Of a stretch of DNA of 64,000 nt, positions 3,171 to 58,789 are shown one piece after another. This stretch comes from Eubacteriales bacterium mix99 (GTDB taxonomy: Bacteria; Bacillota; Clostridia; Caldicoprobacterales; DTU083). The stretch's first letter is position 1, and every line of letters starts with the position of its first letter. The stretch lies in the NCBI GenBank assembly GCA_038396605.1, contig CP121690.1, positions 3,066,356-3,130,355 of the forward strand. Direction: 5' to 3'. A program made the translations under genes and the position numbers. The notes beneath the pieces are model-generated. The model did not search any database. It was not told the DNA's origin and saw only the letters and a list, made by a program, of their open reading frames with translations.

Positions 3171-6100
3171 TATACTGGATCCGGGCGGAACCGGAGAGCT
3201 CCAGATTCCGCGATATGACCACTCCGCGGATACTGCCGCTGCCGGTAACCTTTAATACCGCATTCGGAGCATAAAACACTCCGGCGTCTATCTGCCCATT
3301 ACCTGACAGATTGACTGTATTGCCGCCTGTTACGATAGGACCCGTCATGCCTCCCGAGCCGCCAAGGGTCACATCCGCCTTCTCAGCAAACAAAGAACCG
3401 TTCCATACCGTGCTGCCGCCGAAGTCAAGGGCCTCCCCGCCTGCATAGTACAGAAAGACATCGTCATAACTCCCATCGGGGTTGATTTTCCCGTTATTAG
3501 CCAGCTCGAATCCATCAATAACATACAGGATCAGCCTGCCGCTTCCGGTCCGGTTGACCAGGATGCGTCCGCTACCGGTAACCGACAGATTGTCTGCAAC
3601 GACTTCGATATCCTCGTCGCCGACGTTTATGGTTAATTCATTTGTAACATCAATATTGCCATAGGCGCCGCTTTCGTTGATAACACAGGAGTCTTCCGAC
3701 TGCCACCCGGCTACAAGATCTTCTTTTCCCTCCAGAGCGGGGAACCCCGGAAACTGCGGCAGCAGATATTCTTTCGCCAAAGGAAGAGGTTTGATTTCCC
3801 CTGTTACATTTTCCGCGGGATCGGGTCTCGCGCCGGTCACGACTTTCGTCCAATCCCCGTCCGGACCGATCCACAGATCCCCTTCTATTTCAGCCGACCA
3901 GGAAAAATCCACACTGCCCGCTTCCACGGCATTCGTTCCGATGTTCCCGATAATTTGGGAACTGCCTTTCAGAGATATGCTTTCCGTGGCAAATACACCG
4001 TCGGGAAGCGGCTCCGGCGATCCCGGTGTTTCCGTTGACTCGTCCCAGCCACTGATTTTCTCTGCAAGCGGCATCGGATTAACATCGATTGTCATCTCGG
4101 TTGAAATCGGCTGTGGATGACCGCTTCCGTTCCCAACAATGACGCCCTCGCTCCCCACTGTATACGGTTCGACAAAGACAAACCTGCCGCTCTGTGTGTT
4201 GGTCCCAGTGTAAGCATGGTAGCAAATCCAAAGACTCTTTCCGTCCGGAGATGTCGTGTAAGACGCATGTCCGCAGCCGTTCACCTCATCAGACTTCGAA
4301 AAAATGGGCTCCGGACTTTTTTCCCAGCTATCATAGGAAAGGGGATCGTCCCCAACCAATTTAAGCTGACCAAGAGAATAGAATGTGGTCCAGTAACCGC
4401 TTCCGGAATAAATGATATAAACCCTCCCCGTTGGGGCCATAGACGGCCGTGCCGCCCTCTACAACCTCCGGATAGATTTTATTTCCGCTGGTGGTCGCTC
4501 CTTGCTTTTCCCAATCCAGTGTCGGCTGACAGATCATGGCCTTCTGACCTTTCAGAATCCAAGGTGTACTCATTTCACAGAGGTATTCCACCTGATAGCG
4601 CCGTTGTTCACCGTTTACCGGCTCCTCCCATACTTCATCCACCCACATGGCATAATTCCTGCCTTTGCAGCGAAGAACAGTCTGCCCGGCGCACCATCCT
4701 GTGTTAAATTCCGGATCATCCGGGTTTTTTACCTTAACCGGTACATTTATCTCTCCCGTTTCCGGATTTCCATATGGTCCTTCAGGTGTGCCGCTTAGAG
4801 ATTTGAGTGCATATAACCGATGGTTATTATTATCACCGTCATCGCAGGCAATATATAGATACCATCCGGCATTCTCAGCACCGGCTTCCGCCTCCGAAAA
4901 GTAATGGATCTCCGGCGACCACAAATTCCTGGAATATTCATGTCCTGGCTCGGGCTTAAAGACTACAATCGGAGGCGCGGTGGCCAGATCCTCAAAATTC
5001 ATTGCCTTGAATACACTGATCTGCGTACTGCCTGTAATCGTCAGGTAGTAATATCCGTCGTGAAGAAACAGCCAGGGGTCCGCACCGGAGCGGAGATAGT
5101 TTTGAAAGGCAGTCGTTCCGGTTTCCACTGCGGAAATATCAATAGCCGAACTGGTATTCAGCGTTGATTTCATGTTTCCCTCAAAATTTTTTGTGCCCTT
5201 TACGTCGGTCACGCGCTGATAGTTGCCACCGTTCAGAGCCAGCTCCCAGGTTCCGCTCAACTCCGGTAAAGCCGATGTTGCCGGAGCGATCGCAGAACGA
5301 AAGATTCCGTTATTCAAGGTAGCGGAAAGATGCCCTGAAAATGATTTGCAGTTGTTGCTGGTTCCATAGATTCCGGCATGGAAATCACCGCTGTTGGCGG
5401 TCAGATCAAAGTTGCCGCTAACTTCGCCGTCACCTGTCAGACAGAAATATCCGAAGTATTCGCCGCCGTTCACCTCAACGGTTACATTGGCATTCCGTTG
5501 CGAGGCACGATACCCTCCGTGACTGCTCCACAGCGGGTCGGCGTTCCCACCGCGGACGATGTGATACCTCCCGCTGTTGATGATCAGCGAATAGCTGTCA
5601 TTTTCCACGGCGCGCTCAAATCCACCACCGTTGATGGAAAGGTAATTGGAAACGCCGACCTGCTTTTCGACCCGAATGCCGGTATCAAAAACGGTACTGT
5701 TGCCGTTGCAGTATATACTGCGGGAGGATGCGCGCATTTCAAGGGTAACATCGGCAAAGCGGCTTGGCCCGCCGAGTGCCAGATCTGCGCCTAAATTGAT
5801 CTGTGCAGAGTTTGTCTGGCGGTAGTCTATACCGGCAAAGACACTGGTAACGGTAACGGTTCCTCTATGTGCCGGAAGCTTCACCTCATCCGTGATGGAA
5901 AGCTGTCCGCAGATGACAACGGTACCATCCCTATTATCCAATGCCTGGATCGCACTTCCCAGATTATTTACGGCATCTGTCGGAGAGGAACCCGTCCCCG
6001 TGCCGTCATCTGTAACAAAAACAACACGGCTGCCTTCAACCCGATCAAAGAACGGACGATATCCATCGATTTGCTCTTCTGAATATTTCAGCGAATTGTA

Positions 6101-7435
6101 ATAAAGTGTCCGCTCACCGCTTTTGCTGCCATTGGTATTGTCACCCGCATTTTTCAGCATAATGCTTTCCATCGCCAAAGGTCCGTTTGCACGGTAAACA
6201 GTATCCTTTTCAAAGAGAAGCACGCTGTTTTCTTCGCCGGATAATACGATCCTGCTGTTGTGCGCCGGTTCCTGAAAATGAATGGGAACCGGATATTCTC
6301 CAAGGATCAGGATACTGCCGCCTCCCTGTGAAAGAAGAGAAAACGCGTCTGACAACGAGCCGGTCGGCGTTGCTTCGGAAAGACCGTCGCCTGTGGCGTT
6401 GTTTTTGACATACACACAGCCAAAGGGAATGATATCGTCAAAATCTTTGCCAAGTTCCTGTGCCTGTGCCTCGGAATAAAGAATCGAATTGTATTGAAGC
6501 GTCAGGATTGAATTGGCGCATAGGCTTTCGATCGCAGCACTTCCATAGGACCTGCAAGCTGCGCCGAGAGTTCCGCCGTCCAGGAAAAGCCTGGCATGGC
6601 CGACAACATTGTTAATGTCTACCATATCAACACTGCCGCCTTTTAAGAAGATATCAGCGTCACCGTTGATTCGACGGGTTTTGTCACCGGCAGTAAAGAT
6701 CGTGCCGATCCTGCCGCCATTCACAGTAATTTCCGTGTTGGCGCAATAATGGTTTTCGAGTGCCGCTCCGTATACCTCCCGGATCTCCCCGCCCTCAATG
6801 AGAATATGGGATATCCCGGTATAGGTCTGTGATTTCGTTCCCGATTTCATCTTTCGTGAAAATCCACATAACGCGTAATATGATCCGCTACGGATCGTGA
6901 TTTGGGAATCAAGATCGGTTACAGAGATCTTTTCCGGTTCATAAAAGCCGCCGGCTATATAAATCCCCGTATCAGTGCTTCCCGTATTGACCGTTTCGAC
7001 CCTCTCTCCGAATTCAATCGGGTGGAAGCCTGCCGCAAATGTCATTTGCCCGTTATGCCGAATGGTTACATCTTCAAACAGCGTATTCCCTCCGAGTCTA
7101 TAAAGGTACTTTTCCGGAAAAGTCAATGTCCCGCCGGTTATGGTAACCCTGCCGGAATGTGCCATCTCAGTATACTCCGTATCGGTAAATGTGAACTCCT
7201 CGCCTATACAAACAGTCCCTCCGGAGTCTCCTAAGCTCTCAATTGCTTTGGTCATCGTACGAAAAGCCTGAGCCTCAGATTTGCCGGTGTTGGTGTCATT
7301 GCCCTCATCACTCAGATAAACGATTGAAACGGTCGCATCCGGTTCCGTTGCGGATACCGGAATCCGAAAGCAGCCCATTATGAGCGTCAACAAAATAACA
7401 AACCCAAGGAACATCGGTTTCAAGGTTTTCATCAT
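3148..7435 (-). pseudogene. Secreted beta-helix/GH43 surface protein with an internal frameshift
   Basis: Reading from the ATG at 7433-7435 (GGAGGAG upstream), a 1024-residue frame has a signal peptide (about residues 1-30) and Gly/Asn-rich repeats typical of right-handed parallel beta-helices (for example VNGGRIGTIFTAG). From about residue 785 comes a GH43 five-bladed propeller, with GADPWLFLHDGYYYLT holding the likely catalytic base Asp and VVEGGTAVY the likely acid Glu. The frame then derails at 4426-4429. Removing one G from the minus-strand GGGG there joins it to a 430-codon frame with the rest of GH43 (YGPNGRVYIIYSGSGYW) and a Gly/Ser/Val-rich beta-solenoid tail (SVTGSGRILVNRTGSGRL). 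The combined protein would be about 1430 aa. It lies 23 bp after the epimerase gene. Expected role: extracellular glycan binding or trimming. A base-calling error could also explain the shift. Confidence 0.75.
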
Positions 7436-32107: not shown

Positions 32108-32118
32108 TTGTTATTATT

Positions 32119-32147
32119 ATAATAATACTATGTATGTAGACTGTCAA
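32119..32147 (-). promoter_or_regulatory. Promoter of nrtR-nadABC
   Basis: On the minus strand, TTGACA (32142-32147), a 17-base spacer and TATTAT (32119-32124). The -10 region lies within the AT palindrome noted above. Confidence 0.75.
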
Positions 32148-33270: not shown

Positions 33271-34186
33271 AGCCTTTTGTCACCTCCATGAATACTTCCT
33301 CCAGGCTGCCTTCCTCCCTGGTATAGGATACAACGGAAACCTCTCCTGCGATCAGAATACGGAGCAGCTCCGCCAGATCTTCCTCCCTGCCGGAAAAACC
33401 GACCTCCAGGGTCTGCCCCTCCACCTGCATTTCTCCCGTGGAAGGCTGCTCCCGTAAAATCCGCACCGCTTTTTCCACATCGGAAAGCACCTCTATTTTC
33501 AGCCATGTCTTTCCGATGATCCTGCGCATGATATCCCCCACTTCACCGGAATAAACCATTTTACCCTTTTCAATAATTCCGATATGGGTACACAGCTCCG
33601 ACAGCTCAGGCAGAATATGGGAACTGATCAAAATGGTTTTCCCCATTTCCTTCAGCGTCCGCAGAATGCCTTTCATCTCAATTCTTGCCCGGGGATCCAT
33701 CCCTGAGGCAGGTTCATCCAAAATCAGCAGGCCGGGATTATGAATGAGGCTCCGTGCCAGACAAAGTCTCTGCTTCATGCCCCGGGAAAGGGAATCCACA
33801 TAATTCTCCTTTTTCTTCTGAAGTTCCACCAGTTCAAGCAGTTCCCCCGTCCGCATCATCCTCTCCTGCCGGGAAAGGCCGTAGCAGCTTCCGTAGAAAT
33901 CCATATATTCACTGACCTTCAGATTATCATAAACGCCGAAGAAGTCCGGCATATAGCCCAGTTTCCCTCGTACTTCCACCGGATGCTCCGCTGCATTGAT
34001 TCCATCCACCCGTACCGTACCGGAATCTGCTTTCATCAGTGTGGCTGCAATCCGCATGGTGGTGGTCTTACCGGCACCATTGGGGCCTACGAATCCGTAA
34101 ATATTTCCCTGCGTAAGTTCCAGATTCAGATGATCCACTGCCGTAAAGCGGCCATATGTCTTTACCAGATTCTCAATTTTCAGCAT
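33245..34186 (-). CDS. ABC exporter ATP-binding protein (CcmA type)
   Basis: A 313-aa ATPase with Walker A GPNGAGKTTTMR (residues 33-44), ABC signature LSRGMKQRLCLAR (about 133), Walker B LLILDEPASGMDP (about 152) and H-loop SSHI (about 190). A 90-residue C-terminal regulatory extension follows, as in Nat/Gld-type exporters. ATG at 34184-34186 with AAGGAGGG. It overlaps the 3' end of the large extracytoplasmic protein gene by 14 bases and the permease gene by 26, so all three genes are translated as a unit. Confidence 0.92.
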   Translation of the reverse strand: MLKIENLVKTYGRFTAVDHLNLELTQGNIYGFVGPNGAGKTTTMRIAATLMKADSGTVRVDGINAAEHPVEVRGKLGYMPDFFGVYDNLKVSEYMDFYGSCYGLSRQERMMRTGELLELVELQKKKENYVDSLSRGMKQRLCLARSLIHNPGLLILDEPASGMDPRARIEMKGILRTLKEMGKTILISSHILPELSELCTHIGIIEKGKMVYSGEVGDIMRRIIGKTWLKIEVLSDVEKAVRILREQPSTGEMQVEGQTLEVGFSGREEDLAELLRILIAGEVSVVSYTREEGSLEEVFMEVTKGYEDDSEVE

Positions 34187-36692
34187 CCTGCAGCCCTCCT
34201 TCCAGAGTCACCGTCGGCAATGTGAACTCCACAGGTTCATCCGTAACAGGCTGAACCTTCAAACGAACCATGCCGCTTTCATCCACATAGCGGCTCAGGC
34301 TGCTCCCATCCAGTGAAAGGACTCCGTCTTCCATCCTGACGTAATCCTTCTTCGACAAATCAAATATCATGACCCTGCTCCTGCCGGAGAGAACGCCCAA
34401 ACCGATTTTGCCCTCCAGATCTTTCCGGTCCCGGTATCGGGACAGGTCCATGGAAAAAACAGCATACCCATGGGGATCGTCAATGCTCACAGCGGTTGGA
34501 TTTCCATATATGCCGGCACCCCTGGACTGTTCCTGCTCCAATCTTCCGTTCAGCATCCCCGGAGGAAGGCTCACATGGCCGTCCTGCTCCGCTTCAAAGC
34601 CCACAGATCCCAGCAGGACGCCTTCCCCCATGATAACATCCGGTTTCCGTCCATTGATTTTGATGGCTTCGTCCGGATCCTTTCCGTAAAAGGCAAAGCA
34701 TTGCAAGCGGCAGGAATCCCCTGTTTGCTTCGGGGAAGATTTTTGCATGCCATCATCGGCAAAAAGGTTCTGCAGAATACGGTATCGATTCCTGTCTCTC
34801 CGGCTGGCCCTTCTTCCTCCTGACCATTCCGGATAAAGACTGTCCAGCATGGACTGATAATCCCCGGGAGCTGCCGCCACGCCTTTTGTGGGAAGCATGA
34901 TCTCCACTTTTTTTGTTTCTCCGGAAGCAATGTTGCCTGCCTTTCCATGGAACGAAGCGTTGTACAGGACAAAATCCTCCAGCGGATAAAGCGTATTGTT
35001 TTGCACGGTTCCGACAATCTTTCCCGCTTCATAGCGGAGATCGGCATGAAGAGAACCATAATCCACCCGGCGGGGATCTGCCCGGAAGGTCTTCATGTTC
35101 CATACGCTGCTGTTACGGAACAAAATACGGGATGGTTTCCCCTGGATCATGTGAACATCCGGGGCTGCATTCCCGGCATGGGGAAACGAATCGTCATTTT
35201 CCCCCCCGTTTGCGGAAAGAAAGACTTCCCGGTCCACATCAACCCGATAGTCCCCCCGCCGGGGAAGGAACACTCCCATATAGTCGGTCCGATCCCCGCC
35301 TCCTGAATCGTCATTCAATTCCACGACGGAAATGGTGTTCAGAATCAACTCGCCGCCCTTGGAGCGGTACCCCAGCCCGTAAATCGCCAGGGCAAAAACC
35401 ACGGACAGTACCGGTATGGTAAACCAGGACCACTCCCGCCTGTCTGCCCTTTTCAGAATCATATAGTTGACGGGCCCGATCAGGACCAGATACAACAGAA
35501 ATATTGGCAGAACCGAAGTGACGGAGGGCAGATGCATTGCTTCGATATTCCCCAGGATCTCCTCCATTCCGCTTCCTTCCCCAATGCTTTGATTCGGATC
35601 CTGCAACAATTGGATGGATTGCTCCGGAAGGCTGCGTTCCAGAAGTTTTTCCCAGAATATTTTATTCCCGGCCCAGCTGAGAACAGGCTCGGTCCCCAGA
35701 TCAAACGCTGCGGTATACATGACCCCGGAGCCCTTCCGGTGCATCCATACCAGACCTCCGGCCTGATCGGCATCCTCCGGGGCGGAGTCAGATCCGGCAT
35801 TCCGGCTTACTGCCACCGTACCGCCTTCGATCCGTACATCCATCACATCCAGGGCAGACGATCCGCGGATGGGTTTACCGGATACCTTCTCCAGTTCCGC
35901 CGCGGCATCCTGCTCCGTCACGTCTCCGGCTGCCGCCGGAACAATCTCCTCCGTCAGACCAGCCAGGGTGCGGCTGCCGTTTCCACCCGTCCCGATAATG
36001 AGAATTCCTCCGCTCTGAATCCAGGCATTCAGGGCACGGATCTGCTCCGGCCGAAAGGAACCGGTATTCACCTGATTCAGAATCAGGATGGAGAAGCTGT
36101 CCAAAACTTCCCGATGATCCGGAAAGTTTTCCGCAGTCAGGGAAACCGGCTGATAATTGGCCAGCAGCAAATCCCCTTCCGACCTTTCCTTCCAATATCC
36201 CAGGGAAGGCTCATCCCCGGTCACCAGCCCGAGAAAATAGTGATCTGCGGATACCGGGTTCAGCTTCTCCGCCTTTCCCTCTTTCACAACTTTCTCCTTG
36301 TCGTCCATCAGGCGAATATCCAGGGAGCGGTTCAATTTTTGCATCTTTACATAAATCGTATATTCCTGGGAAGAGGCATGGGGCAGGCGAACGGGAACCC
36401 CGTAAGCTGTTTTTTTGCCGGATTCCCCGGTGATCGGCACTTCCAGGGTGCCTTCCAGATCGGCCCCTGAATTTTCCAGAAAAATCCGAACCGGCGTCCA
36501 GCAGCCTATCCGATACGTTCCATCAAATCCCACCTCTGCCTTCATGACCGGACCCCCGTTCCCTGCGGAATTCCCCGCTGCCGTATCCTTTTTCGGCGTC
36601 ATATCCGTGCCCTTTGCCAGGCAAACAGCAGGCAGGAAAAACAGGGATCCGATCATCAGCCAGAAGATGACCGCGATCCAGGCCGCTTTCAT
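34173..36692 (-). CDS. Large membrane-anchored extracytoplasmic protein of an ABC-2 exporter
   Basis: An 839-aa protein of no recognised family, starting at the ATG at 36690-36692 (AAGGAAGG upstream). It has a signal/anchor helix (AAWIAVIFWLMIGSLFFLPAVCLA, first ~30 residues), then beta-sandwich-like segments. A central Rossmann-like stretch follows (FSILILNQVNTGSFRPEQIRAL, GGILIIGTGGNG), of the type seen in GATase-like domains of GldG/DUF4350 proteins. Two further helices sit near residues 395-450 (VLPIFLLYLVLIGPVNYMIL; FTIPVLSVVFALAIYGLGY), and a large C-terminal outside domain ends the protein. Paired ATPase and permease overlap downstream. Function unknown; the layout suggests a cell-envelope export or remodelling machine. 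Confidence 0.72.
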   Translation of the reverse strand: MKAAWIAVIFWLMIGSLFFLPAVCLAKGTDMTPKKDTAAGNSAGNGGPVMKAEVGFDGTYRIGCWTPVRIFLENSGADLEGTLEVPITGESGKKTAYGVPVRLPHASSQEYTIYVKMQKLNRSLDIRLMDDKEKVVKEGKAEKLNPVSADHYFLGLVTGDEPSLGYWKERSEGDLLLANYQPVSLTAENFPDHREVLDSFSILILNQVNTGSFRPEQIRALNAWIQSGGILIIGTGGNGSRTLAGLTEEIVPAAAGDVTEQDAAAELEKVSGKPIRGSSALDVMDVRIEGGTVAVSRNAGSDSAPEDADQAGGLVWMHRKGSGVMYTAAFDLGTEPVLSWAGNKIFWEKLLERSLPEQSIQLLQDPNQSIGEGSGMEEILGNIEAMHLPSVTSVLPIFLLYLVLIGPVNYMILKRADRREWSWFTIPVLSVVFALAIYGLGYRSKGGELILNTISVVELNDDSGGGDRTDYMGVFLPRRGDYRVDVDREVFLSANGGENDDSFPHAGNAAPDVHMIQGKPSRILFRNSSVWNMKTFRADPRRVDYGSLHADLRYEAGKIVGTVQNNTLYPLEDFVLYNASFHGKAGNIASGETKKVEIMLPTKGVAAAPGDYQSMLDSLYPEWSGGRRASRRDRNRYRILQNLFADDGMQKSSPKQTGDSCRLQCFAFYGKDPDEAIKINGRKPDVIMGEGVLLGSVGFEAEQDGHVSLPPGMLNGRLEQEQSRGAGIYGNPTAVSIDDPHGYAVFSMDLSRYRDRKDLEGKIGLGVLSGRSRVMIFDLSKKDYVRMEDGVLSLDGSSLSRYVDESGMVRLKVQPVTDEPVEFTLPTVTLEGGLQDAEN

Positions 36693-36828
36693 AGCATCCT
36701 TCCTTCTCAAATTCTCTCCTCCATTCTGCTGCTGCCTCCCCGGACAGCTGCGATATGGACCGAAATCCATCCAGTCCAGATAAATCATTCAAATCATCTG
36801 TCATTTTGTAATCCTTTTCCTTGCCACA

Positions 36829-36908: not shown

Positions 36909-36955
36909 AAAAGGCTCGCAGATACAACCGCTGCAGGTGTATCTGCGAGCCTTTT
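36909..36955 (-). terminator. Strong terminator behind the encapsulin operon
   Basis: A perfect 17-base stem (36909-36925 with 36939-36955, GC-rich core GGCTCGCAGATAC) and a 13-base loop, ending in T-runs on both strands. It closes the encapsulin transcript and insulates the exporter operon. Confidence 0.85.
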
Positions 36956-37010: not shown

Positions 37011-37853
37011 TTATTCAAAAGTCACCACTGCCTTGTCTCTTTTCAAACGGAACAGAGCCGTCTCAAAAACACGGAAGGTATGATTCATCTTCTCCGGTCC
37101 GATATAGCCGGTGATGATATCCTGTCCGATGGCCAGATCCATATAATGAGGAGAGCAGGCAACCAACACCGCCTTGCCTTTCCCGATCACAGGAGATTGA
37201 TACACTTTACCGCCGACCAGTTCCCGGATCCGGTCAATCAGCAGAACGCCGGTACCTTGCTGGAGCCTCTGCATCTGCAGATAAAGATCCGTTCCGGCGA
37301 TCAGGGCATATGGCTCAAAGATGCCCTCGGAAGTCAGTTTCTCCACTCCCGCTGCCACATCCAGGAACGGATTGTCTCCTTCCGACCAGTTACTCCTGGA
37401 AACCATCTGCCGCTCCTCCGCATTCAGCAGCCCCGGGCAGCCAAACTCCGGACAGCCGTTGAAAATCATGTCATCTTCCTTTTTGGACAGTGCATTTGCC
37501 GCGGCGGCGGCTGCGCTCAAATCCACAGGTACTCCGGTCTGTTTTTCGGTTTCCACATCCCTCCAGGATATCAGGAAATCCTTGTAAAGCATGGGAATCG
37601 CAGCCAGAGTCCGATCCTGAGCCTTTGCCAGGACCGGTTCCTGATCCCCGAGCAGATCGGCACAGGTCTCTTCGTTAAAGTCCAGCTTGTCCAGATGAAT
37701 CCCCTGGATGCCGGCACCCAGCGGGCCGTATATGGGAAGAAATCTTCTGCCGACCAGCTGATCCCTGGCAACCCCGACAACCTGTTGGTCGATTTTCTCC
37801 CATAGATCTGAGGCAAACGGGGCATCACCCCTCAGTAAAAAATCCGTATCCAT
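37011..37853 (-). CDS. Family 1 encapsulin nanocompartment shell protein
   Basis: Self-assembling HK97-fold shell protein that forms an icosahedral protein cage around a cargo enzyme. The 280-aa product (family about 265-285) begins RGDAPFASDLWEKIDQQVVG, the typical N-terminal helix. It contains LVGRRFLPIYGPLGAGIQ (about residue 33), LYKDFLISWRDVE (about 88), LSAAAAAANALSKKEDDMIFNG (about 112) and YALIAGTDLYLQMQRLQQGTG (about 195). It ends with the shell block GKAVLVACSPHYMDLAIGQD. It follows its cargo gene by 13 bp. No phage head genes surround it, so this is an encapsulin and not a prophage capsid. Confidence 0.95.
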   Translation of the reverse strand: MDTDFLLRGDAPFASDLWEKIDQQVVGVARDQLVGRRFLPIYGPLGAGIQGIHLDKLDFNEETCADLLGDQEPVLAKAQDRTLAAIPMLYKDFLISWRDVETEKQTGVPVDLSAAAAAANALSKKEDDMIFNGCPEFGCPGLLNAEERQMVSRSNWSEGDNPFLDVAAGVEKLTSEGIFEPYALIAGTDLYLQMQRLQQGTGVLLIDRIRELVGGKVYQSPVIGKGKAVLVACSPHYMDLAIGQDIITGYIGPEKMNHTFRVFETALFRLKRDKAVVTFE

Positions 37854-37866
37854 ATCACTACACCTC

Positions 37867-38256
37867 CTATTTCTGATCCTTCAGACTTCCCACTGTTAGC
37901 GAAGGTTTCTCCGAGTCAGCCGCTTCCGAGCTGCCGGCCGACGGATCGGCGGTTCCGCCATTGAGCTCTTCCATCATCTCCTGGACTTCCTTCTGACCAT
38001 CCAGGAAAAGATCCGCTTCCCCGGGATCCAGGATACGCATCAGAGTCATCAGCTCTCCGACATGTGCTCTTTCTTCATCCCGGATATCGCTCAGTACTGC
38101 CTTTGCGGCAGGATCATCCGTAGCCTGGACATGCGCATCATACAGATAGATTGCCTCCAGCTCGCCGCCGATATCCAACCGAACCGCCTGAATCAATTCT
38201 TCTTTTGACATTTTTCGTTCCACATTTGCAGTAAACGGGTTTGCAAAACTTGGCAA
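37867..38256 (-). CDS. Encapsulated ferritin-like cargo protein with targeting peptide
   Basis: A 129-aa cargo of the encapsulin cage, expected to oxidise and store iron or reduce peroxide. The start is TTG at 38254-38256 with GGGGAG eight bases upstream; a GTG 17 codons earlier lacks homology and a site. The product opens LPSFANPFTANVERKMSKEEL, then a compact ferritin-like two-helix unit with Glu32 and Glu34 (GELEAIYLYDAH) and the ExxH motif Glu62-His65 (DEERAHVGEL). An acidic flexible linker (about 95-115) leads to the loading peptide PSLTVGSLK at the C-terminus, which matches the LTVGSL-type encapsulin signal. Short EncFtn proteins need to dimerise to complete the ferroxidase site. Confidence 0.93.
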   Translation of the reverse strand: MPSFANPFTANVERKMSKEELIQAVRLDIGGELEAIYLYDAHVQATDDPAAKAVLSDIRDEERAHVGELMTLMRILDPGEADLFLDGQKEVQEMMEELNGGTADPSAGSSEAADSEKPSLTVGSLKDQK

Positions 38257-38355
38257 TTTAACAACTCCCCTTTCTTTTGTTTCCTTCTTTAATATACCCC
38301 CTTCCACCTTCCTTAAAACGCCGTTGGAAGAGAATATTGGAGTACCTCCGGATAC

Positions 38356-40743
38356 CTATATGATATTTACCCCGGTTTGTCCCTTTTGAATAATGCTGCG
38401 GTATTGCGCGGGAGTCACGCCTTCCTTCTTTTTGAACTTCCTGTAGAAGCTGGACTTGTCTACGTATCCCACCTGACGGATGATATCCGCCAGCGGATCG
38501 TTTGTTTCCTTCAACAATCTTTTCACTTCCGTCATCCGAAGCCGATCCACATAATGCATCAGGGAATACCCGGTCTGATCCTTGAAATACCGGCTGATAT
38601 AGGAAGGAGACATATGGAATCTGCAGGCAATGGTATCCAGCGACAGGGCACTGTCCCGATATTCTCTGGTAACCATATCCATGATCTGCTTCTGCAGCTC
38701 AAAGTTTTTACTTTCCTTTTGCTGCTGAATATAACTGCAGATTGTACTGCAGAAGCCGATCATGCGATCCATCAGACCATCCACAGTATCAAACGGCCGG
38801 TAAAAAATATCCTCTTCTTCCTTCGCAGAAAACAGGACGGCATCCAGGTTCAAATCATCCACTACCTTCATAATCGTATTGATGATTCCAAAACAGATAC
38901 ATTGAACCGCTTCAATGGAGGAGGAATGATTCAGGATATGCTCCCGGATTTCCAGCAGAATCGTTTTCGCTTCCCCGCTTTTCCCTCCTTTTATGGCAAT
39001 CACCAGTTTTTGCTCCAGTATGGTGGGATACTGATACTTTTCCTTTTGCTTTTCCCTTATATTTTCATAAAAAATAACATTCCCATATCCTTTGATCAAC
39101 CGATAATAAACCGCCCGGTTGGCTTCCAGACAGGATTCATGAATCCGATCCATGCTGTCATAAATATTTCCTACCCCTACTGTCAGGGTAAATCCAAAAT
39201 ACTTCAGAAAAAAATCTTTGACCCGAAAGGCAAGATCACTGATATACCGATCCATGGCATATCCATTTTTCAGATTCAGCAGCAGCATCACACCTCTGCC
39301 GTCCACCGTTTCAACGCCGAACCCACGGCCGATTTCCTCCGACAATTCCTCTGCGACGTTTTTCAGGTTGAAATTCGCCAGATCCCGGATCTCCCTGTGA
39401 TTTTCTTCTTCCAACTTATCATCGCCTGTCCGGCTGTTCTCATCCGGCAGAAATTCCAGAACCAGAAAATAGGGATAATCAAAGGAAACCCCGTACATTT
39501 CCTGCATGCTGTCCTGTTCTCTGGAATCCGTCCTTTTCCCGTTCAACAGCTTCATTATGAATTGATCCCGAATCAATGCCGTTTTACTCCTCAACTGCGT
39601 CGAAAGATTTCTGTTTTCCGTGGAGACCCCCATAATGGTTTTCGTCATATATTCAAATTCGTTGGAGTAAGACTGCTTCGCGTATTTATTTTCCTGGTTC
39701 GGTATGACATCCATTAATTTCCGTACCGGTTTATACTGCCCATGAGCCAGAAAATAAGCGATAATCAGGCCGGACAGCAGAACAAAAGCCGTCACATATT
39801 GGAATACCCTTTTGCCGGCATTTACATCATGTATCAGCTGATCGGTTTTTCGCAGCACAACATAGGACCAGCCGTTGTATTCGGAAGTAATTCCTGCTGC
39901 GGAATAGCTGCTTCCATCCAGTTCCATATCATCTACATTCTGTTTGGCCAGAATATCCTTCATTTGTTCCATAATGATCTTCCGGTCCAGTGCCGGCTGT
40001 TCCTCTGTATGGCAAAAAACAGGATTTCCCTGCCGGTCCAGGACATACACATATCCGCTGTACTCTCCCAAAGCATTTTTGAGCATATCTGAGAGCGTAT
40101 TATTCTCAATGAAAAAGACAACGTCCAGATAGGGCCGGACGGCATTGACCGGCAAAGGATAGACATAAGCCGCCAGCTCATTTTTATAGGAGCGATTGAT
40201 CCAGACGGGACGGGCGGAATACATTTTCGGAGTATCCAGGGACTTCACCATGTCCAGAAAATCATCCACGCCCCTGTCCTCGTAATGATAGAGGATATTG
40301 AAAAACGTCTCCGGAGCAGCGCTTGCCGTAGACGTATAGATCCGATTTCCCGAAGAGGATTCCGAAGTGCCATAATTGTAATACATGGCAATGTCGTAAA
40401 TGAATCCGCTGCTGGATTTATACTTCTTCAGTTCTTTGACTGCCTGCTTCGACTCATAATTGTCGTCGCTGATTTTATAGTGCCTGAGATTATCGTTGTA
40501 ACTGATATTCAGCGCAATGCGTTCCATTTCCTGCAGTCTGGTATCCATCAGATCCCGGATCTGAACCACGGAAGTACGGTTGGATCGCCTTACTTCCCTT
40601 TGCATCGTCAATTTGAAGTTTCGCTGCACTGCTGCGCCCAAAATGGACAGAACCAATATCAGGAACAAAACATAGGACAGGAAATACTTATAAAAATAAG
40701 AAAAGTATCTCCTGGAATGTTTGCTGCCTTTTACATCCCCCAT
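38356..40743 (-). CDS. AraC-family membrane sensor-regulator (system 2)
   Basis: A 795-aa regulator with the same plan as the one at 25470. Helix 1 is near residues 14-38 (YKYFLSYVLFLILVLSILGAA), followed by an extracytoplasmic Cache-like domain to about 300, helix 2 (TAFVLLSGLIIAYFLAHG), a linker and GGDEF-like-fold segment, and a C-terminal AraC domain from about 695. The AraC domain has SLDTIACRFHMSPSYISRYF and DPLADIIRQVGYVDKSSFYRKF. The ATG at 40741-40743 follows GGGGTGG. It lies 106 bp after importer 2 on the same strand and is its likely regulator. The encapsulin operon begins 100 bp behind it; read-through is possible. Confidence 0.88.
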   Translation of the reverse strand: MGDVKGSKHSRRYFSYFYKYFLSYVLFLILVLSILGAAVQRNFKLTMQREVRRSNRTSVVQIRDLMDTRLQEMERIALNISYNDNLRHYKISDDNYESKQAVKELKKYKSSSGFIYDIAMYYNYGTSESSSGNRIYTSTASAAPETFFNILYHYEDRGVDDFLDMVKSLDTPKMYSARPVWINRSYKNELAAYVYPLPVNAVRPYLDVVFFIENNTLSDMLKNALGEYSGYVYVLDRQGNPVFCHTEEQPALDRKIIMEQMKDILAKQNVDDMELDGSSYSAAGITSEYNGWSYVVLRKTDQLIHDVNAGKRVFQYVTAFVLLSGLIIAYFLAHGQYKPVRKLMDVIPNQENKYAKQSYSNEFEYMTKTIMGVSTENRNLSTQLRSKTALIRDQFIMKLLNGKRTDSREQDSMQEMYGVSFDYPYFLVLEFLPDENSRTGDDKLEEENHREIRDLANFNLKNVAEELSEEIGRGFGVETVDGRGVMLLLNLKNGYAMDRYISDLAFRVKDFFLKYFGFTLTVGVGNIYDSMDRIHESCLEANRAVYYRLIKGYGNVIFYENIREKQKEKYQYPTILEQKLVIAIKGGKSGEAKTILLEIREHILNHSSSIEAVQCICFGIINTIMKVVDDLNLDAVLFSAKEEEDIFYRPFDTVDGLMDRMIGFCSTICSYIQQQKESKNFELQKQIMDMVTREYRDSALSLDTIACRFHMSPSYISRYFKDQTGYSLMHYVDRLRMTEVKRLLKETNDPLADIIRQVGYVDKSSFYRKFKKKEGVTPAQYRSIIQKGQTGVNII

Positions 40744-40849
40744 TCTGACCACCCCTGCCTCCAAAATCCATCGCCGTCTCCTATCGAATCCATATGGACT
40801 GTCTATAGTGTACCGTAATGGAGGGCTCCCGTCCAGCTTTTTGGGATTT

Positions 40850-41740
40850 TTATCCTTTTATGGCCCCCACCATGACGCCTTTTACAAAATACTTCTGTAA
40901 AAAGGGATACAACAGCAGCACAGGGACACTGGCCACCACGATTACGGCGTATTTGATTCCCTCGGACAGCATTTGCTGATCCACCAGAGATGCCCCTTCT
41001 CCCGTCATGTCATTCATATCGCTCTTAATCAGAATTTCCCTCAGTATCAGCTGCAGGGGGAATTTTCCCCTGTCCTGAAAATAAATCATCGCATTGAAAT
41101 AGGCATTCCAATGTCCGACTCCGTAATACATCACCATGACCGCAATCACCGGAGCGGAAAGGGGAAGCACAATCCGGAGCAGAATGCCAATGTTGGAACA
41201 GCCGTCAATAAACGCAGCCTCCTGCAGTTCCACCGGTATACTGTTCTGAAAAAAAGTCCTCATAATAAACATATTCCATACGCTGACTGCCCCCGGTAAA
41301 ATCATGACCCAGAAATTATTGACCAGGCCCAGCTGGCTGTTTACCAGATAGGTTGGTATCAATCCTCCGCCAAAAAACATGGTGAAGGTATAAAACAAAG
41401 TCAGGGCCTTTCTCCCGCGGAAATCCTTCCTGGAAATGGGGTAGGCCCCCGCAATGGTCATGATCAGGTTGATCACGGTACCGACCACCGTATAGAGTAT
41501 GGTGTTCTTATATCCCGTCATAATATCCTCATTGGCAAACACTGCCTTGTACGCACTCAGGGAAGGGGATTTCGGCAGCAGGACAACCTCCCCTTTCATG
41601 ACAGCCATGGTATCACTGAACGATGCGCTTACAACATAAACTAAAGGATACAGGGCAATCACCAGGATAACCATTAGAAGCAAACCATTGATAACATTGA
41701 ATATAATATCGCTCCTGCTTTCCCTCACACTGGTTTTCAT
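40850..41740 (-). CDS. Carbohydrate ABC permease, LplC-like (system 2)
   Basis: A 296-aa, six-helix permease. Helix 1 is VINGLLLMVILVIALYPLVYVVSASF; the EAA loop is VELQEAAFIDGCSNIGILLRIVLP and the ending KYFVKGVMVGAIKG is family-typical. ATG at 41738-41740 with AAGGAGGG, 12 bp behind the partner permease. No ATPase is encoded nearby; a shared MsmX-type ATPase is expected. Confidence 0.9.
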   Translation of the reverse strand: MKTSVRESRSDIIFNVINGLLLMVILVIALYPLVYVVSASFSDTMAVMKGEVVLLPKSPSLSAYKAVFANEDIMTGYKNTILYTVVGTVINLIMTIAGAYPISRKDFRGRKALTLFYTFTMFFGGGLIPTYLVNSQLGLVNNFWVMILPGAVSVWNMFIMRTFFQNSIPVELQEAAFIDGCSNIGILLRIVLPLSAPVIAVMVMYYGVGHWNAYFNAMIYFQDRGKFPLQLILREILIKSDMNDMTGEGASLVDQQMLSEGIKYAVIVVASVPVLLLYPFLQKYFVKGVMVGAIKG

Positions 41741-41752
41741 TTCTGTCCCTCC

Positions 41753-42709
41753 TTACCACAAACTGGTTTCTGTTGTCTTCTTGGATATCCTGTTGACCGC
41801 AACCAATAAGATTAAATTGATAATGGAATTGAACAAGTTCACTGCTGTGGAAAAACTGTACTGCGCTTGTATCAGCCCGGCTTTATAAACATAAGTGGAA
41901 ATAACTTCCGAAACAGTGAGGTTCAATCCATTTTGCATCAGAAACACCTTTTCATATCCGACACTCATTACTTTTCCGGTATTCATAATCAGCAGTACAA
42001 TTGCCGTAGGAAGGATTCCGGGAATGGTAATATGCCAGATCCGCTGCCACTTTGAAGCGCCGTCTACAATTGCAGCTTCATATAAACTTGGGTCAACTCC
42101 TGACAATGCCGCCATATAAATAACAGAGTCCCAGCCCACATTCTGCCATACACCGGACCAGACATAAAGACTGCGAAACCAGGAAGGCTCTCCCATAAAA
42201 TAGACAGAAGAAATGCCCAGTTGATTCAAAAATTTGTTTATAATCCCTGTTTTGGGAGACAGCATGGAGGTCATCATCCCCACCAGTACCACCGTAGACA
42301 GAAAATGAGGGGCATACGTAACGGTTTGTACCGTCTTCTTGAATGACTTGTTCTGCACTTCGTTCATCATCAGAGCCAAAAAAATCGGAAAGGGAAATCC
42401 TATCAAAAGGGAATAAATACTGATGCCCAGGGTATTCTTAATTAAAGATTCAAAATGATAACTGTTGAAAAACCGGTTAAAATGTTTCAGGCCCACAAAC
42501 GGACTTCCCCAGATCCCTTTGGTGGCAAAAAAGTCCTTGAAAGCAATCTGTACCCCATACATGGGCCAGTAATGAAAAATAAGGAAGTATATCACTACCG
42601 GAAGAGACAATAAATACAAATCCCAATTCTTTGACACCGTTCCGGGAATGATACGGTTCTTCGTTCCGAGCTTGTTTTTTTTCTGTTTCTTCATCGGCGT
42701 CTGCAGCAT
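41753..42709 (-). CDS. Carbohydrate ABC permease, LplB-like (system 2)
   Basis: A 318-aa permease with helix LYLLSLPVVIYFLIFHYWPMYGVQIAF near residue 30, segment SLLIGFPFPIFLALMMNEVQ, EAA loop LYEAAIVDGASKWQRIWHITIP and ending SKKTTETSLW. ATG at 42707-42709 with GGAGGG. It follows the receptor gene by 106 bp; the receptor-permease-permease order equals the classical lplABC operon. Confidence 0.9.
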   Translation of the reverse strand: MLQTPMKKQKKNKLGTKNRIIPGTVSKNWDLYLLSLPVVIYFLIFHYWPMYGVQIAFKDFFATKGIWGSPFVGLKHFNRFFNSYHFESLIKNTLGISIYSLLIGFPFPIFLALMMNEVQNKSFKKTVQTVTYAPHFLSTVVLVGMMTSMLSPKTGIINKFLNQLGISSVYFMGEPSWFRSLYVWSGVWQNVGWDSVIYMAALSGVDPSLYEAAIVDGASKWQRIWHITIPGILPTAIVLLIMNTGKVMSVGYEKVFLMQNGLNLTVSEVISTYVYKAGLIQAQYSFSTAVNLFNSIINLILLVAVNRISKKTTETSLW

Positions 42710-42815
42710 CTCTCACCCTCCGTAATTATTTATCAGTTTCTTTTCCGCATCGTAAAACCAGAAGGATGAGAATACAGCCGATGATGGCCCGGCTGTATTC
42801 CGCTTCTGTCCAAAC

Positions 42816-44498
42816 TCACCTGGAATAACGTTTATATCCTTTGGTGTAGATATCCATGTATTCATCCAGTCCCATTTTTTTGATCTGATCCACATAGCTG
42901 TCCCATTTCTTAAAGGATACTTTTCCCTGGATAAACTGCGGATACATTTGGCTGATATATCCATTGATATCACTTTCCAATGCTGCCTTTCGATCGATTT
43001 CCTCCAGGGTATAGTTGAATTTGTTCCACATTTCCTTGGGGGTATAGGGAGCCATGTCTTCAGCAGCTTTCAGCGCCACCGGATGAGTTTCCCCGCCTTT
43101 GAAGTATTCTGTTCTCTGCAGGGCAGGAATGCCGCCGCCGGTATAGGTAACATATTTTGAAATCACCTGATCAAAGGAAGATCCTTCCGGAATATCGTTT
43201 ACAATCTCATCCAGAAATTCATAGGATCCATCCGGCTTTTTTTCATAGGATTTTCCTTCCACTCCCAGAAACGGCAGCTTTCCTCCCTCTTCGCTGTAGA
43301 AATAATCGATCCATCTTACCGCTGCCTCCGGATACTTGCATTTATCCGTGATGACGAAAGCTCCTCTGGCCCCTACGCTGCCTCTTTTTGCCCACAGCTT
43401 GTCTCCATGTGGTCCTTCCAGAGCTTCATGCAGTCCTTCAAAACTCTTTTCTCCGGTATGTCCGATCTGCTCCGTATTGGTAAAGGAAAACGCGCCAACC
43501 TGATTTTGATCTCCTTTTGCCACCAGCTGCGGCACATCCATAGTGAAGATTTCCTGATCAATCAGGCCTTCTTTATAAAGCTTGTTCAGATATTGAAGCA
43601 TTTCCTTGTATTCCGGCTGAACCGGGATGAATCTCAATTCTCCGGTTTCTTCATTCATATCTACATATCCGTGATCGGTGCCCCGGTTTCGCAATCCAAA
43701 AGCACCATACAGGGAATTCAGGATCAGATCCAGGCTGTTTGCAGACCATGGAATCTCATCTGCCTTGCCATTCCCGTTGGGATCGCCTTCCTTGAATGCC
43801 TTCAGGACGTCATACAGTTCCTCTGTGGTCGTCGGCATTTCTTTTCCGACCTTTGCCAGCCATTCCTTGTTCAGAAACAGTTTCGGGTTGATCTGAACCG
43901 GGTCGGAGTCCGTATACTGCACAAAGCTGTATGCGTTTCCGTCCACCGCATAGGCTGCTTTTTCGGCAGCCGGATTATCCTCCATCATTTTCTTGTAATT
44001 GGGAGCATATTGTTCGATCAGGTCATTCAATGAAATAAAAACGCCCTGAGACCCGTATTTCAGGAGCTCAGTATCCGGTACACTGGCCCGATAAAACAAA
44101 TCCGGGTATTTTCCGGATGTCAGTACAAGATTCCTTTTTTCCGTCAGCTCTGAGGAAACTTCCTGCCATTCCATCTTGATCCCGGTCATTTTCTCATATT
44201 CCTGCCAGCACAGCATCTCTTTCCAAGCCGGCTGCGAAACATGCTGGGAAACCATTGCCGTTAAAGTAATCGGCTCCTTTGCAATGGGGAATCCGGATTT
44301 GTTCAAATAATCCGGCACGGACTTTTTCTTGCTGCCTTCCTTATCCTTTCCCTTGTTCCCGGATGCATCATCTGACGCGACCTCCTGCCCATTTTTTCCG
44401 TTGTCAGCCCCTTTCTTTTCCCCGCTGCAGCCAGCCAATATCCCGACTGTCAGCACCATCGCCAACGTCACGGACAAAATCCGCTTCAACCATTTCAT
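42816..44498 (-). CDS. Extracellular solute-binding lipoprotein, LplA-like (system 2)
   Basis: Receptor of importer 2, 560 aa. Signal peptide with lipobox LAGCSG (Cys about 24), then a long Lys/Asp/Gly-rich spacer, then the binding fold (KNLVLTSG-like RNLVLTSGKYPDLFYRAS, IPWSANSLDLILNSLYGAFG). Its ligand pocket region (RNRGTDHGYVDMNEETGELRF in two segments) and length of about 500 mature residues suggest an oligosaccharide ligand. ATG at 44496-44498 with GAGGAGGG upstream. It is the first gene of its operon. Confidence 0.9.
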   Translation of the reverse strand: MKWLKRILSVTLAMVLTVGILAGCSGEKKGADNGKNGQEVASDDASGNKGKDKEGSKKKSVPDYLNKSGFPIAKEPITLTAMVSQHVSQPAWKEMLCWQEYEKMTGIKMEWQEVSSELTEKRNLVLTSGKYPDLFYRASVPDTELLKYGSQGVFISLNDLIEQYAPNYKKMMEDNPAAEKAAYAVDGNAYSFVQYTDSDPVQINPKLFLNKEWLAKVGKEMPTTTEELYDVLKAFKEGDPNGNGKADEIPWSANSLDLILNSLYGAFGLRNRGTDHGYVDMNEETGELRFIPVQPEYKEMLQYLNKLYKEGLIDQEIFTMDVPQLVAKGDQNQVGAFSFTNTEQIGHTGEKSFEGLHEALEGPHGDKLWAKRGSVGARGAFVITDKCKYPEAAVRWIDYFYSEEGGKLPFLGVEGKSYEKKPDGSYEFLDEIVNDIPEGSSFDQVISKYVTYTGGGIPALQRTEYFKGGETHPVALKAAEDMAPYTPKEMWNKFNYTLEEIDRKAALESDINGYISQMYPQFIQGKVSFKKWDSYVDQIKKMGLDEYMDIYTKGYKRYSR

Positions 44499-44640
44499 TT
44501 AATAAGCCCTCCTCATTTTTCGTTTCCAAACAGCCTGACCATATGGTATGGAAAGCAGACATGGATCCCCCAACGTGAACCACTTTCCACTTTATTCCCT
44601 TACGGATGAACAGACAGGCTATTGATACCTTACTAAAAAA

Positions 44641-44669
44641 ATCATATGGCTTTCGTAAGGTTTTGTCTA
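44641..44669 (-). promoter_or_regulatory. Candidate promoter of importer 2
   Basis: Minus strand TAGACA (44664-44669), 17 bases, TATGAT (44641-44646). The spacer is flanked by an imperfect CCTTAC/GTAAGG inverted repeat that might be an operator. Confidence 0.5.
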
Positions 44670-44754
44670 TTTGTTATTTTGTCCGGGAGTTGCTTTCCTT
44701 TACATTTCACGCATTATTGCCCGCCTTCCTGCGCTTTTTTGATGCAGACAGATA

Positions 44755-44794
44755 AAAAGCCGGCGCCCGGGATCCGCTCCACTGACGCCGGTTT
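44755..44794 (-). terminator. Terminator behind the NYN-domain gene
   Basis: CCGGCG (44760-44765) pairs with CGCCGG (44786-44791); on the minus strand the stem is followed by CTTTTTATC. The loop of 20 bases is long for an intrinsic terminator. Confidence 0.55.
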
Positions 44795-44825
44795 CCTTCT
44801 TTCCTTTCCCCGCCCGATATCCGAA

Positions 44826-55749: not shown

Positions 55750-56736
55750 TTATATTTCGTTTTCCAGTATTCTTGTCAGCAATTCAACGGAATGCTCCAA
55801 ATCGCCGCTGTCCACCATCTCATGGGGGCTGTGGACATATCGGCAGGGAACGGAGAGGACGCCGGAAGGAACACCTGCCCGGGACAGATGAATAGCTCCG
55901 GAATCGGTGCCGCCGGCCGTCAGGACTTCCAGCTGACAGACAATGCCTGCCTCCTCCGCTCTGCGGATCATGAGCTCCTTCACCATGGGATGGGCAATGA
56001 CGGAAGAATCCATGACCTTGATCGCCGGACCGGCTCCCAGACGAATGGCGGACGGACTGGATTTCGGCGTGTCGCCTGTGGGAGTCACATCCAGTGCGAT
56101 GGCAATGTCGGGAGCGACGGAATACGCTGCTGTCCTGGATCCTCTCAGGCCCACTTCCTCCTGTACGCTGAATACATAAACCAGTTCATTGGGAGACTGC
56201 TTCACCGCCTTGATGGCTTCCACCAATACGGCACAGCCGGCCCGGTTATCCATGGAGCAGCCGAAATACCGCCCGTTGCTTTCCGCCATGGGTGCGTAAT
56301 AAGCCGCCACATCGCCAATATTTACGCATTTCCGTGCTTCTTCCCGGCTACCGGCTCCGATATCGATAAACATACGATTTCGCTTCAGGCTCTTCATGTC
56401 CTCCATTTCCGTTTCATAGCCTACCGTTCCGGCTGTTCCGTTTCCGAAGATCACTCTCCTGTGAATCAGGTTAAACGGTGAAACTCCTCCCACATTGGTA
56501 AAACGCAGAAAACCGTTTTCGTCAATATTGGTTACAATCAGCCCGATCTGGTCCATGTGGGCTGCCAGCATGATTTTTTTGCCGGACCCTTTTTTCACCG
56601 CAATCAGGTTGCCCAGTGCGTCTGTATGCATTTCATCCACGTAATCCCGGATTTCGTTTTCAATAGCCTCCCGGATCCTCTGTTCATTGCCCGAAGGGCC
56701 ATAAATTCCCGTCAGGTTCATCAGCAATTCCTTCAT
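55750..56736 (-). CDS. M42 family aminopeptidase (third of three)
   Basis: A 328-aa dinuclear metallo-aminopeptidase that forms tetrahedral dodecamers in studied relatives and trims peptides in the cytosol. Metal and catalytic residues: His in LAAHMDQIGLI (about 58), bridging Asp in FGCSMDNRAGCAV (about 168), the Glu pair in SVQEEVGLRG (about 200), Asp in ALDVTPTGD (about 222) and His in YVHSPHEMVD (about 307). The ATG overlaps the preceding stop (ATGA). Its sequence class is YsdC/FrvX-like. Together with its two neighbours it may form mixed complexes, as archaeal TET proteins do. Confidence 0.93.
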   Translation of the reverse strand: MKELLMNLTGIYGPSGNEQRIREAIENEIRDYVDEMHTDALGNLIAVKKGSGKKIMLAAHMDQIGLIVTNIDENGFLRFTNVGGVSPFNLIHRRVIFGNGTAGTVGYETEMEDMKSLKRNRMFIDIGAGSREEARKCVNIGDVAAYYAPMAESNGRYFGCSMDNRAGCAVLVEAIKAVKQSPNELVYVFSVQEEVGLRGSRTAAYSVAPDIAIALDVTPTGDTPKSSPSAIRLGAGPAIKVMDSSVIAHPMVKELMIRRAEEAGIVCQLEVLTAGGTDSGAIHLSRAGVPSGVLSVPCRYVHSPHEMVDSGDLEHSVELLTRILENEI

Positions 56737-57752
56737 CTGGTTTCACATCCTTTCAAAAATTCTTTCATCAGCTGCAGGGTATCGGAATAATCCTTCAGAT
56801 CCATCACCGAGGACGGGGAATGAATATAGCGGCAGGGAACGGACACCACCAGCGTCGGCACTCCGCCCCTGGATTTCTGAATGCTGCCTGCGTCATTGCC
56901 GCCGGCTACATTTTCCTTTATCTGATAGGGAATGGAATGGCTTTCCGCCGTCTCCACCATCCGGCGGAACAGCCCCCTGTCGGAAATGGAACTGTTGTCC
57001 ATAAAGGAGATTGCAGGCCCTTTGCCCTGCCGGGTGGTCTGCATATGATCGGGTACATCGGGAATATCCGCACAGGTGGTCCCTTCCAGGGATACGGCCA
57101 GATCCGGCTCTACATGCCAGGCAGCCACCTCCGCTCCCCGCAGTCCGATCTCCTCCTGCACCGAAAAGCAGGCCACCATGTCAAAATCATAGGTGTTCTT
57201 CAGCAGTTCCAGTAAGATCCCGCAGCCGACGCGGTCATCCAGCGACTTTGCCTTGACCTTGTTGTCCCCGAACCGGACAAACCGGCTGTCAAAGGAGGCA
57301 TAATCCCCGATCTCAACCAATTCCTCCGTGTCCTCCCTGCAGGAAGTGCCAATATCCATATACATCTGCTTTTGCCGGACGACCTTGTCCCGTTCCTCCG
57401 GTTCCTGCAAATGAATCGCCTTCACGCCGATGACGCCGGGAATCCGGCTTTCTCCGACCAATACTCTTTTGGACAGCAGAAGACGCTGATCGATGCTGCC
57501 GATGGTTTTGAACTTCAGCATGCCATTGTCGAGAATGCCGGAGATCAGAAAGCCCACTTCATCCATATGGGCTTCCAGCATAACTTTTTTGCCACCCTTC
57601 TGGCCGGCCTTTTCCGCAAGAACATTGCCCATCCGATCCACAGACACCCGGGCGCCGGTTTGTCCTGCCAGCTCCCGGATGATGGCCCGAACCTCATTTT
57701 CATTTCCGGAGACGCCTGCGGCCTCCGTCAGACGTTTCAATACTTCAACCAT
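56733..57752 (-). CDS. M42 family aminopeptidase (second of three)
   Basis: A 339-aa paralogue. Key residues: His in LEAHMDEVGFL (about 60), Asp in KSLDDRVGCGIL (about 170), Glu pair in SVQEEIGLRG (about 204), Glu instead of Asp in SLEGTTCADIP (about 226, a normal variant of one subclass) and His in YIHSPSSVMD (about 312). I prefer ATG 57750-57752 because AAGGAGGG lies nine bases before it, whereas the ATG three codons earlier is almost on top of that site. It overlaps the upstream M42 gene by 16 bases. Confidence 0.92.
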   Translation of the reverse strand: MVEVLKRLTEAAGVSGNENEVRAIIRELAGQTGARVSVDRMGNVLAEKAGQKGGKKVMLEAHMDEVGFLISGILDNGMLKFKTIGSIDQRLLLSKRVLVGESRIPGVIGVKAIHLQEPEERDKVVRQKQMYMDIGTSCREDTEELVEIGDYASFDSRFVRFGDNKVKAKSLDDRVGCGILLELLKNTYDFDMVACFSVQEEIGLRGAEVAAWHVEPDLAVSLEGTTCADIPDVPDHMQTTRQGKGPAISFMDNSSISDRGLFRRMVETAESHSIPYQIKENVAGGNDAGSIQKSRGGVPTLVVSVPCRYIHSPSSVMDLKDYSDTLQLMKEFLKGCETR

Positions 57753-58789
57753 TCCTGCCATCCCTCCTTCAATGAAGCAATAAACAATGCAATAAGCCTA
57801 GCCCCCATTTTCAAGTGATCCAGATTCAGGGTCTCCACCGTTGTGTGCATGTAGCGCAGTGGGATTTCCACCAGAATCGAGGGGACACCGGCGCGGGAAA
57901 CCTGTATGGACCGGGCATCCGTTCCCGTCGGACGTGCGGAAGTGCTGATCTGGTATTCGATGCCGTATTCCCGGGCGGTCTCCAGTATTTTCTCCGTTAA
58001 GCCGGGATGCATATTGGGCCCTTTGCAGATCACAATGCCTTTTTCCATGGAATAGGTATCGTCCGGGGAAGCGTCCGGGGTTTCCCCGTGCGTCACATCA
58101 ATGGCAATCCCAATATCCGGCTCCGCCTGAAAGGCACTGAGAATGGCGCCTCTGGCACCAACCTCTTCCTGAACCGTCGCCACGGCACAGACCTCCGCCT
58201 CAAACGGGAGCCTGTCCAGCTCCTGCAAAACCCCCTTCAGCATGGCAACACCGGCGCGATCGTCAATGGATTTGCCATTCACCATGGATCCCTGCATGGA
58301 AACCATCGGATTGCAGAAGGTAATCAAATCCCCGATCCGGACCAGCTTCCGCACCTTTTCGGCACAGTAACCCACATCCACGCTCAGATCTTTCATTTTC
58401 ACAACTTTGCGGGTGTCGCCGGTTTCCTGAAGGTGGGGCGGCACCGTTGTAATCACGCCATGCAGCTTTTCCCTGCCATGAACCGTTACTTCCTGGGCAA
58501 GCAGGATCCGCTGATCCACACCGCCCACTTTGGTAACCTTTAGAAATCCGTTTTCATCAATATCCCGCACCATAAGGGCAATTTCATCCATATGGGCCGC
58601 CAGCATCACCTTCGGTACAGGATTTTCCCCGGATGTCCTGCCCTTCTTGATTCCATAAACATTGAAAAACCGATCCGTACGGACCTCATCGCAATATTCG
58701 GAGAACTCTCCTGCGATACGCTTTGCCACTTCCTCCTCCTGCCCGGATACACCAGGCAGGTCCATCAATTCCGCAAGAAATTCCTTCAA
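57737..58789 (-). CDS. M42 family aminopeptidase (first of three)
   Basis: A 350-aa paralogue, nearest in look to CelM/YtoP-type members. Key residues: His in LAAHMDEIALM (about 65), Asp in KSIDDRAGVAML (about 175), Glu pair in TVQEEVGARG (about 208), Asp in AIDVTHGETP (about 230) and His in RYMHTTVETL (about 320). The start is TTG with GGGAGG eight bases upstream. It follows mgtC by 21 bp and overlaps the next M42 gene. Confidence 0.92.
   Translation of the reverse strand: MKEFLAELMDLPGVSGQEEEVAKRIAGEFSEYCDEVRTDRFFNVYGIKKGRTSGENPVPKVMLAAHMDEIALMVRDIDENGFLKVTKVGGVDQRILLAQEVTVHGREKLHGVITTVPPHLQETGDTRKVVKMKDLSVDVGYCAEKVRKLVRIGDLITFCNPMVSMQGSMVNGKSIDDRAGVAMLKGVLQELDRLPFEAEVCAVATVQEEVGARGAILSAFQAEPDIGIAIDVTHGETPDASPDDTYSMEKGIVICKGPNMHPGLTEKILETAREYGIEYQISTSARPTGTDARSIQVSRAGVPSILVEIPLRYMHTTVETLNLDHLKMGARLIALFIASLKEGWQEWLKY

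Follow-up and report, generated by a model that had tools for sequence, protein, structure and literature searches.

The window analysed here, a 64,000-nucleotide stretch of the Eubacteriales bacterium mix99 genome, contains two adjacent and intact open reading frames on the minus strand, a cargo gene (37867-38256) followed after an intergenic gap of 13 nt by a shell gene (37011-37853). Both frames are uninterrupted, as the first-pass annotation of this DNA had described in calling shell and cargo adjacent and complete. The shell gene encodes a 280-aa family 1 encapsulin with the HK97 fold, identified through NF041155, PF04454 and phmmer, and the cargo gene encodes a 129-aa encapsulated ferritin-like protein (EncB_fam / FLP-TP), identified through NF058679, the solved EncC structure 7s8t, a structural model and Foldseek. 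The cargo starts at a TTG codon and carries a C-terminal loading peptide, LTVGSL, at residues 120-125 (37882-37899, minus strand). Reading the sequence, we placed the Shine-Dalgarno element of the cargo, GGGGAG, at 38265-38270 on the minus strand, 8 nt 5′ of the TTG, and that of the shell, AGGAGG, at 37863-37868 on the same strand, where it overlaps the cargo stop codon. On the 3′ side of the shell lies a strong intrinsic terminator (36909-36955, minus strand), a 47-base hairpin with a U-rich tail whose fold of -35.2 kcal/mol (z -6.7) was equalled in stability by 0 of 200 shuffles; a hairpin and T run also follow the shell in genome G002 (L053).

The open reading frame list gives the cargo as 146 aa from a GTG at 38307, which bears out the earlier warning that automated calls may add 17 wrong residues. 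Most cargo orthologues begin with ATG-CCA or ATG-CCT at the residue of this TTG (MPSFANPF...). In the sister species, Firmicutes bacterium UBA4874 (G001, locus L007), the cargo likewise starts at TTG, and the 19 in-frame codons upstream to the stop include no ATG, GTG or TTG; the middle of this sister-species gene is masked with N, and both ends are present. Given the orthologue starts and the lack of an upstream in-frame start in the sister species, we regard the 17 additional residues as spurious and the TTG as the true start. The ribosome site AAAGGGGAG, including the GGGGAG element, is also identical in the sister species.

Shell and cargo proteins

The shell passed the NCBI family 1 equivalog model NF041155 (274.6 bits against a cut-off of 100, E 7.7e-82) and matched Pfam PF04454 at 1.3e-70. 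Among solved shells, phmmer ranked 9i8e (1.1e-66), Myxococcus xanthus EncA (1.2e-62) and that of Quasibacillus thermotolerans (5.8e-62) as nearest, with a much weaker match to the T=1 shell of T. maritima (about 1e-20). A T=1 shell is not supported by this ranking, which favours EncA and 9i8e over T. maritima, and the nearest solved relatives point to a cage of T=3 or T=4. Within the family to which the window's genome belongs, all three genomes have a long E-loop like that of EncA and 9i8e, and the loop is 7-8 residues shorter in most other shell members outside that family. Comparison with the sister species indicated purifying selection on the shell (dN 0.033, dS 0.35). A structure prediction of the shell from three sequences reached a pLDDT of 33.6 and was set aside.

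For the cargo, the NCBI EncB_fam model NF058679 was passed with 156.6 bits (cut-off 90, E 2.3e-46), and TIGR04535 ferrit_encaps scored 105.5 bits, under its curated cut-off of 125; the protein was therefore filed under EncB_fam. Its nearest solved counterparts by sequence are M. xanthus EncC (7s8t, 1e-16) and the ferritin domain of P. furiosus (4.9e-14). A single-sequence AlphaFold2 model (mean pLDDT 76.8) placed helices at residues 7-10, 18-45, 49-76 and 78-100, followed by a low-confidence floppy tail. This arrangement agrees with the published description of FLP-TP cargos (PMC11202242): a short H1, two long helices, a short fourth helix and a disordered tail. Foldseek placed the P. furiosus domain 5n5e at rank 1 for this model, followed by EncC and EncB. 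An IMEF cargo is not supported, given the two long predicted helices together with the EXXH motif, which is present as E62-R-A-H65.

Alignment of complete cargo orthologues revealed that E32, E34, Y39, E61, E62 and H65 are invariant (20/20) and that position 31 is glycine in all but one (19/20). The four residues singled out in the first-pass annotation, E32, E34, E62 and H65, are accordingly present, but Glu34 is not among the three ferroxidase-centre ligands reported for this family, Glu32, Glu62 and His65 (PMC11202242). The predicted C-terminal loading signal also held up: LTVGSL matches the targeting peptide of EncC and EncB (PMC11202242, Table 2), and T[VI]GSL or RVGSL, followed by a few further residues, closes each of the 20 complete orthologues. 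The description of the cargo as minimal did not survive this comparison, since the 20 aligned cargos of the class span 114-129 aa and the present protein, of normal length for the class, is the longest of them.

A genome-wide search for a second TVGSL-tailed cargo returned 44 pattern sites, none convincing, and no iron-release cargo was found. Of the candidates, one preceded by a long open frame was discarded as lying antisense to another gene, and a permease in the window that ends in TVGSLKG was rejected as a membrane protein.

Conservation of the gene pair

A survey of 391 genomes from the same class yielded 22 full-length shells of this clade, spread over 21 genomes, and in all 22 cases the cargo gene lies directly 5′ of the shell. 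Moreover, the evolutionary distances of shells and cargos are correlated (Mantel r 0.71, 0 of 5000 permutations, 13 pairs). The original identification of an encapsulin shell with a ferritin-like cargo that bears a loading peptide is backed by profile, structure, synteny and conservation tests alike. The shell could instead be a prophage major capsid protein and its neighbour a chance open reading frame, a reading for which one may cite a weak Pfam match to Major_capside (6.4e-07) and the HK97 fold common to encapsulins. We consider this extremely improbable: the family 1 equivalog model is passed, no phage gene cluster was recognised among the surrounding open reading frames, no relative was found in viral contigs, and the cargo-shell pairing is fixed in 21 genomes. 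The locus is genuine and intact, and as an encapsulin it is ordinary, belonging to a kind already known.

Several relatives in the survey show other arrangements. Two close cargo homologues (L031, L033) lack the TVGSL tail, and no shell was found in the same genome. Separate cargo relatives of about 105 aa that start with MPDFG (L034, L036-L040) have neither a loading peptide nor an adjoining shell of this clade. In three further cases (G065:C1:2120240-2121299, G092 and G119), a cargo-like gene lies 3′ of the shell, opposite to the cargo-first order.

Neighbouring genes and control of the operon

Upstream of the operon lies a block of AraC and ABC-transporter genes (38301-44822), comprising an AraC gene at 38356-40764, permeases and a binding protein, which we place outside the encapsulin system. 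The AraC gene encodes a membrane sensor joined to an AraC DNA-binding domain, and the first-pass annotation had raised it as a sugar-sensing candidate controller; such control would tie iron storage to carbohydrate supply. The gene is on the strand of the operon, 99 bases upstream of it, and no intrinsic terminator was detected in between: a hairpin located there (z -1.4, no U run) was not called a terminator. Read-through transcription from AraC into the operon is possible. Nevertheless, the adjacency, although real in this genome, is not that of a conserved partner. When the sister contig was aligned to the window with blastn, the match jumped from 44823 to 38300, leaving a 6.5-kb block, 38301-44822, without counterpart. 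The sister-species operon comes straight after an NYN-domain gene, with 151 differing bases between the aligned stretches, and still keeps the ribosome site and the GGGGTATAT block described below; the top-ranking AraC match there is only 23% identical, so that no close orthologue is present. In G002, the operon is preceded by a row of peptidase genes. The AraC gene of the window, for its part, adjoins ABC transporter genes of its own. Control by AraC was thus ruled out as the leading idea by synteny, and we regard it as highly unlikely. A narrower version, in which the arriving carbohydrate-transport/AraC block put the operon under sugar control in this species only, has a slimmer chance still; if true, iron storage would answer to carbon supply. 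Because the block is absent in the sister species and other neighbours are found in G002, we conclude that the AraC gene is probably unrelated to the operon, a neighbour specific to this lineage that goes with its own transporter.

A candidate promoter for the operon, the weak and putative TTTTAA-16-TATATT at 38291-38318 on the minus strand, fell below the threshold of the consensus scan. Its GGGGTATAT block, 35-45 bases 5′ of the TTG and at the border of the region shared with the sister species, is kept in that species and may represent the -10 region, although the scan did not list it. Transcription would most likely begin between AraC and the cargo gene and stop at the terminator 3′ of the shell.

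Other features of the surroundings are recorded here in their own right. On the 3′ side of the shell, before an ABC-2 ATPase/permease pair, the window encodes an 871-aa membrane-type protein (34173-36788, minus strand) that had no match in a Pfam search and occurs in 3/3 shell-bearing family members; in G002, too, this large membrane protein and the ABC pair are retained downstream of the operon. Three tandem peptidase-like genes at 55750-58789 (minus strand) are conserved in G002, where they directly precede the encapsulin operon. An AT-rich palindromic stretch at 32108-32131, with four overlapping PerR-box-like matches, lies just 5′ of a NUDIX-like gene that stands before NAD synthesis genes. 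By eye, the end of a 1024-aa open reading frame (4361-7435, minus strand), which appears secreted and glycoside-hydrolase-like, meets a 430-aa frame (3148-4440, minus strand) in another reading frame; the latter looks like a continuation of the former, possibly reflecting a frameshift in one large gene.

Probable iron storage and relation to known encapsulins

An encapsulin cage loaded with a tagged iron-oxidising enzyme is a well-known bacterial iron-storage compartment. In such systems, the cargo oxidises Fe2+ and the shell keeps the mineral (PMC11202242, PMC8346489), and encapsulins with ferritin-like cargo have already been reported as widespread in Firmicutes (PMC8346489). The two-gene operon described here very probably specifies an iron-storage compartment built from a family 1 encapsulin with cargo of the EncB/EncC (FLP-TP) type. 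By analogy with solved relatives, the cargo would pair into dimers and then decamers, forming a di-iron ferroxidase site from Glu32, Glu62 and His65 with Tyr39, and its floppy tail would dock LTVGSL in an interior cleft of the shell, itself assembled into a cage of T=3 or T=4. Through the shell pores, Fe2+ would enter, be oxidised by the cargo and form mineral inside.

The same compartment could serve mainly in oxidative-stress protection, taking up free Fe2+ with peroxide as the oxidant and storing iron only secondarily. Oxidative stress induces the encapsulins of M. xanthus and T. maritima, and such a role has been proposed for them (PMC11202242); the genome studied here has two Fur/PerR-family regulators as well as rubrerythrins. 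However, a search for Fur-like and PerR-like boxes found none in range of the operon, and no ferritin was detected in the genome to act as the store; we hold stress protection as the main job to be a credible but less likely reading. Returning to iron storage, the PF00210 matches in this genome were rubrerythrins only, with no ferritin detected, while G002 has a true ferritin, so that here the compartment may be the main iron-mineral store. This does not extend to the class: ferritin is equally common with and without this shell (12/21 genomes against 170/370 others; Fisher p 0.37), which rules out the idea that the encapsulin generally replaces it. Among the genes adjoining the operon, we saw neither a ferredoxin nor a reductase.

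The locus adds one well-defined EncB/EncC-type encapsulin from Bacillota, with its start codon corrected, and shows that a striking AraC neighbour is probably incidental. Furthermore, as the genus has an encapsulin where ferritin was not found, knock-outs could reveal the role of the cage without ferritin back-up, and the system could show how a cage oxidises iron in a probably anaerobic lineage.

The known systems closest to this locus include that of M. xanthus, whose EncA (4pt2, 7s20) is alike in shell clade and E-loop length and whose EncB and EncC (7s5c, 7s8t) are alike in the N-terminus (NPF...RKM), in Glu32, Tyr39, Glu62 and His65, and in the LTVGSL tail. M. xanthus has three native cargos, EncB, EncC and EncD (PMC5959871), whereas here a single cargo lies directly before the shell, and no EncD-like reductase was seen beside the operon. 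The EncFtn of Rhodospirillum rubrum (5da5) has the same fold and ferroxidase residues as the present cargo, but shows only 26-32% identity in Foldseek alignments and differs in its loading tail, SLGIGSLK as opposed to LTVGSL, and at position 31, which is glycine here. The fusion encapsulin of P. furiosus (2e0z, 5n5e) supplies one of the nearest solved cargo domains, yet in that system cargo and shell form one fused protein, whereas here the two are encoded by separate genes and the cargo carries a loading peptide. Finally, the IMEF encapsulin of Q. thermotolerans (6nj8, 6n63) has a related shell and a TVGSL-type tail in common with the present system, but its cargo has four helices and lacks EXXH (PMC11202242), in contrast to the EXXH motif and two-long-helix fold found here.
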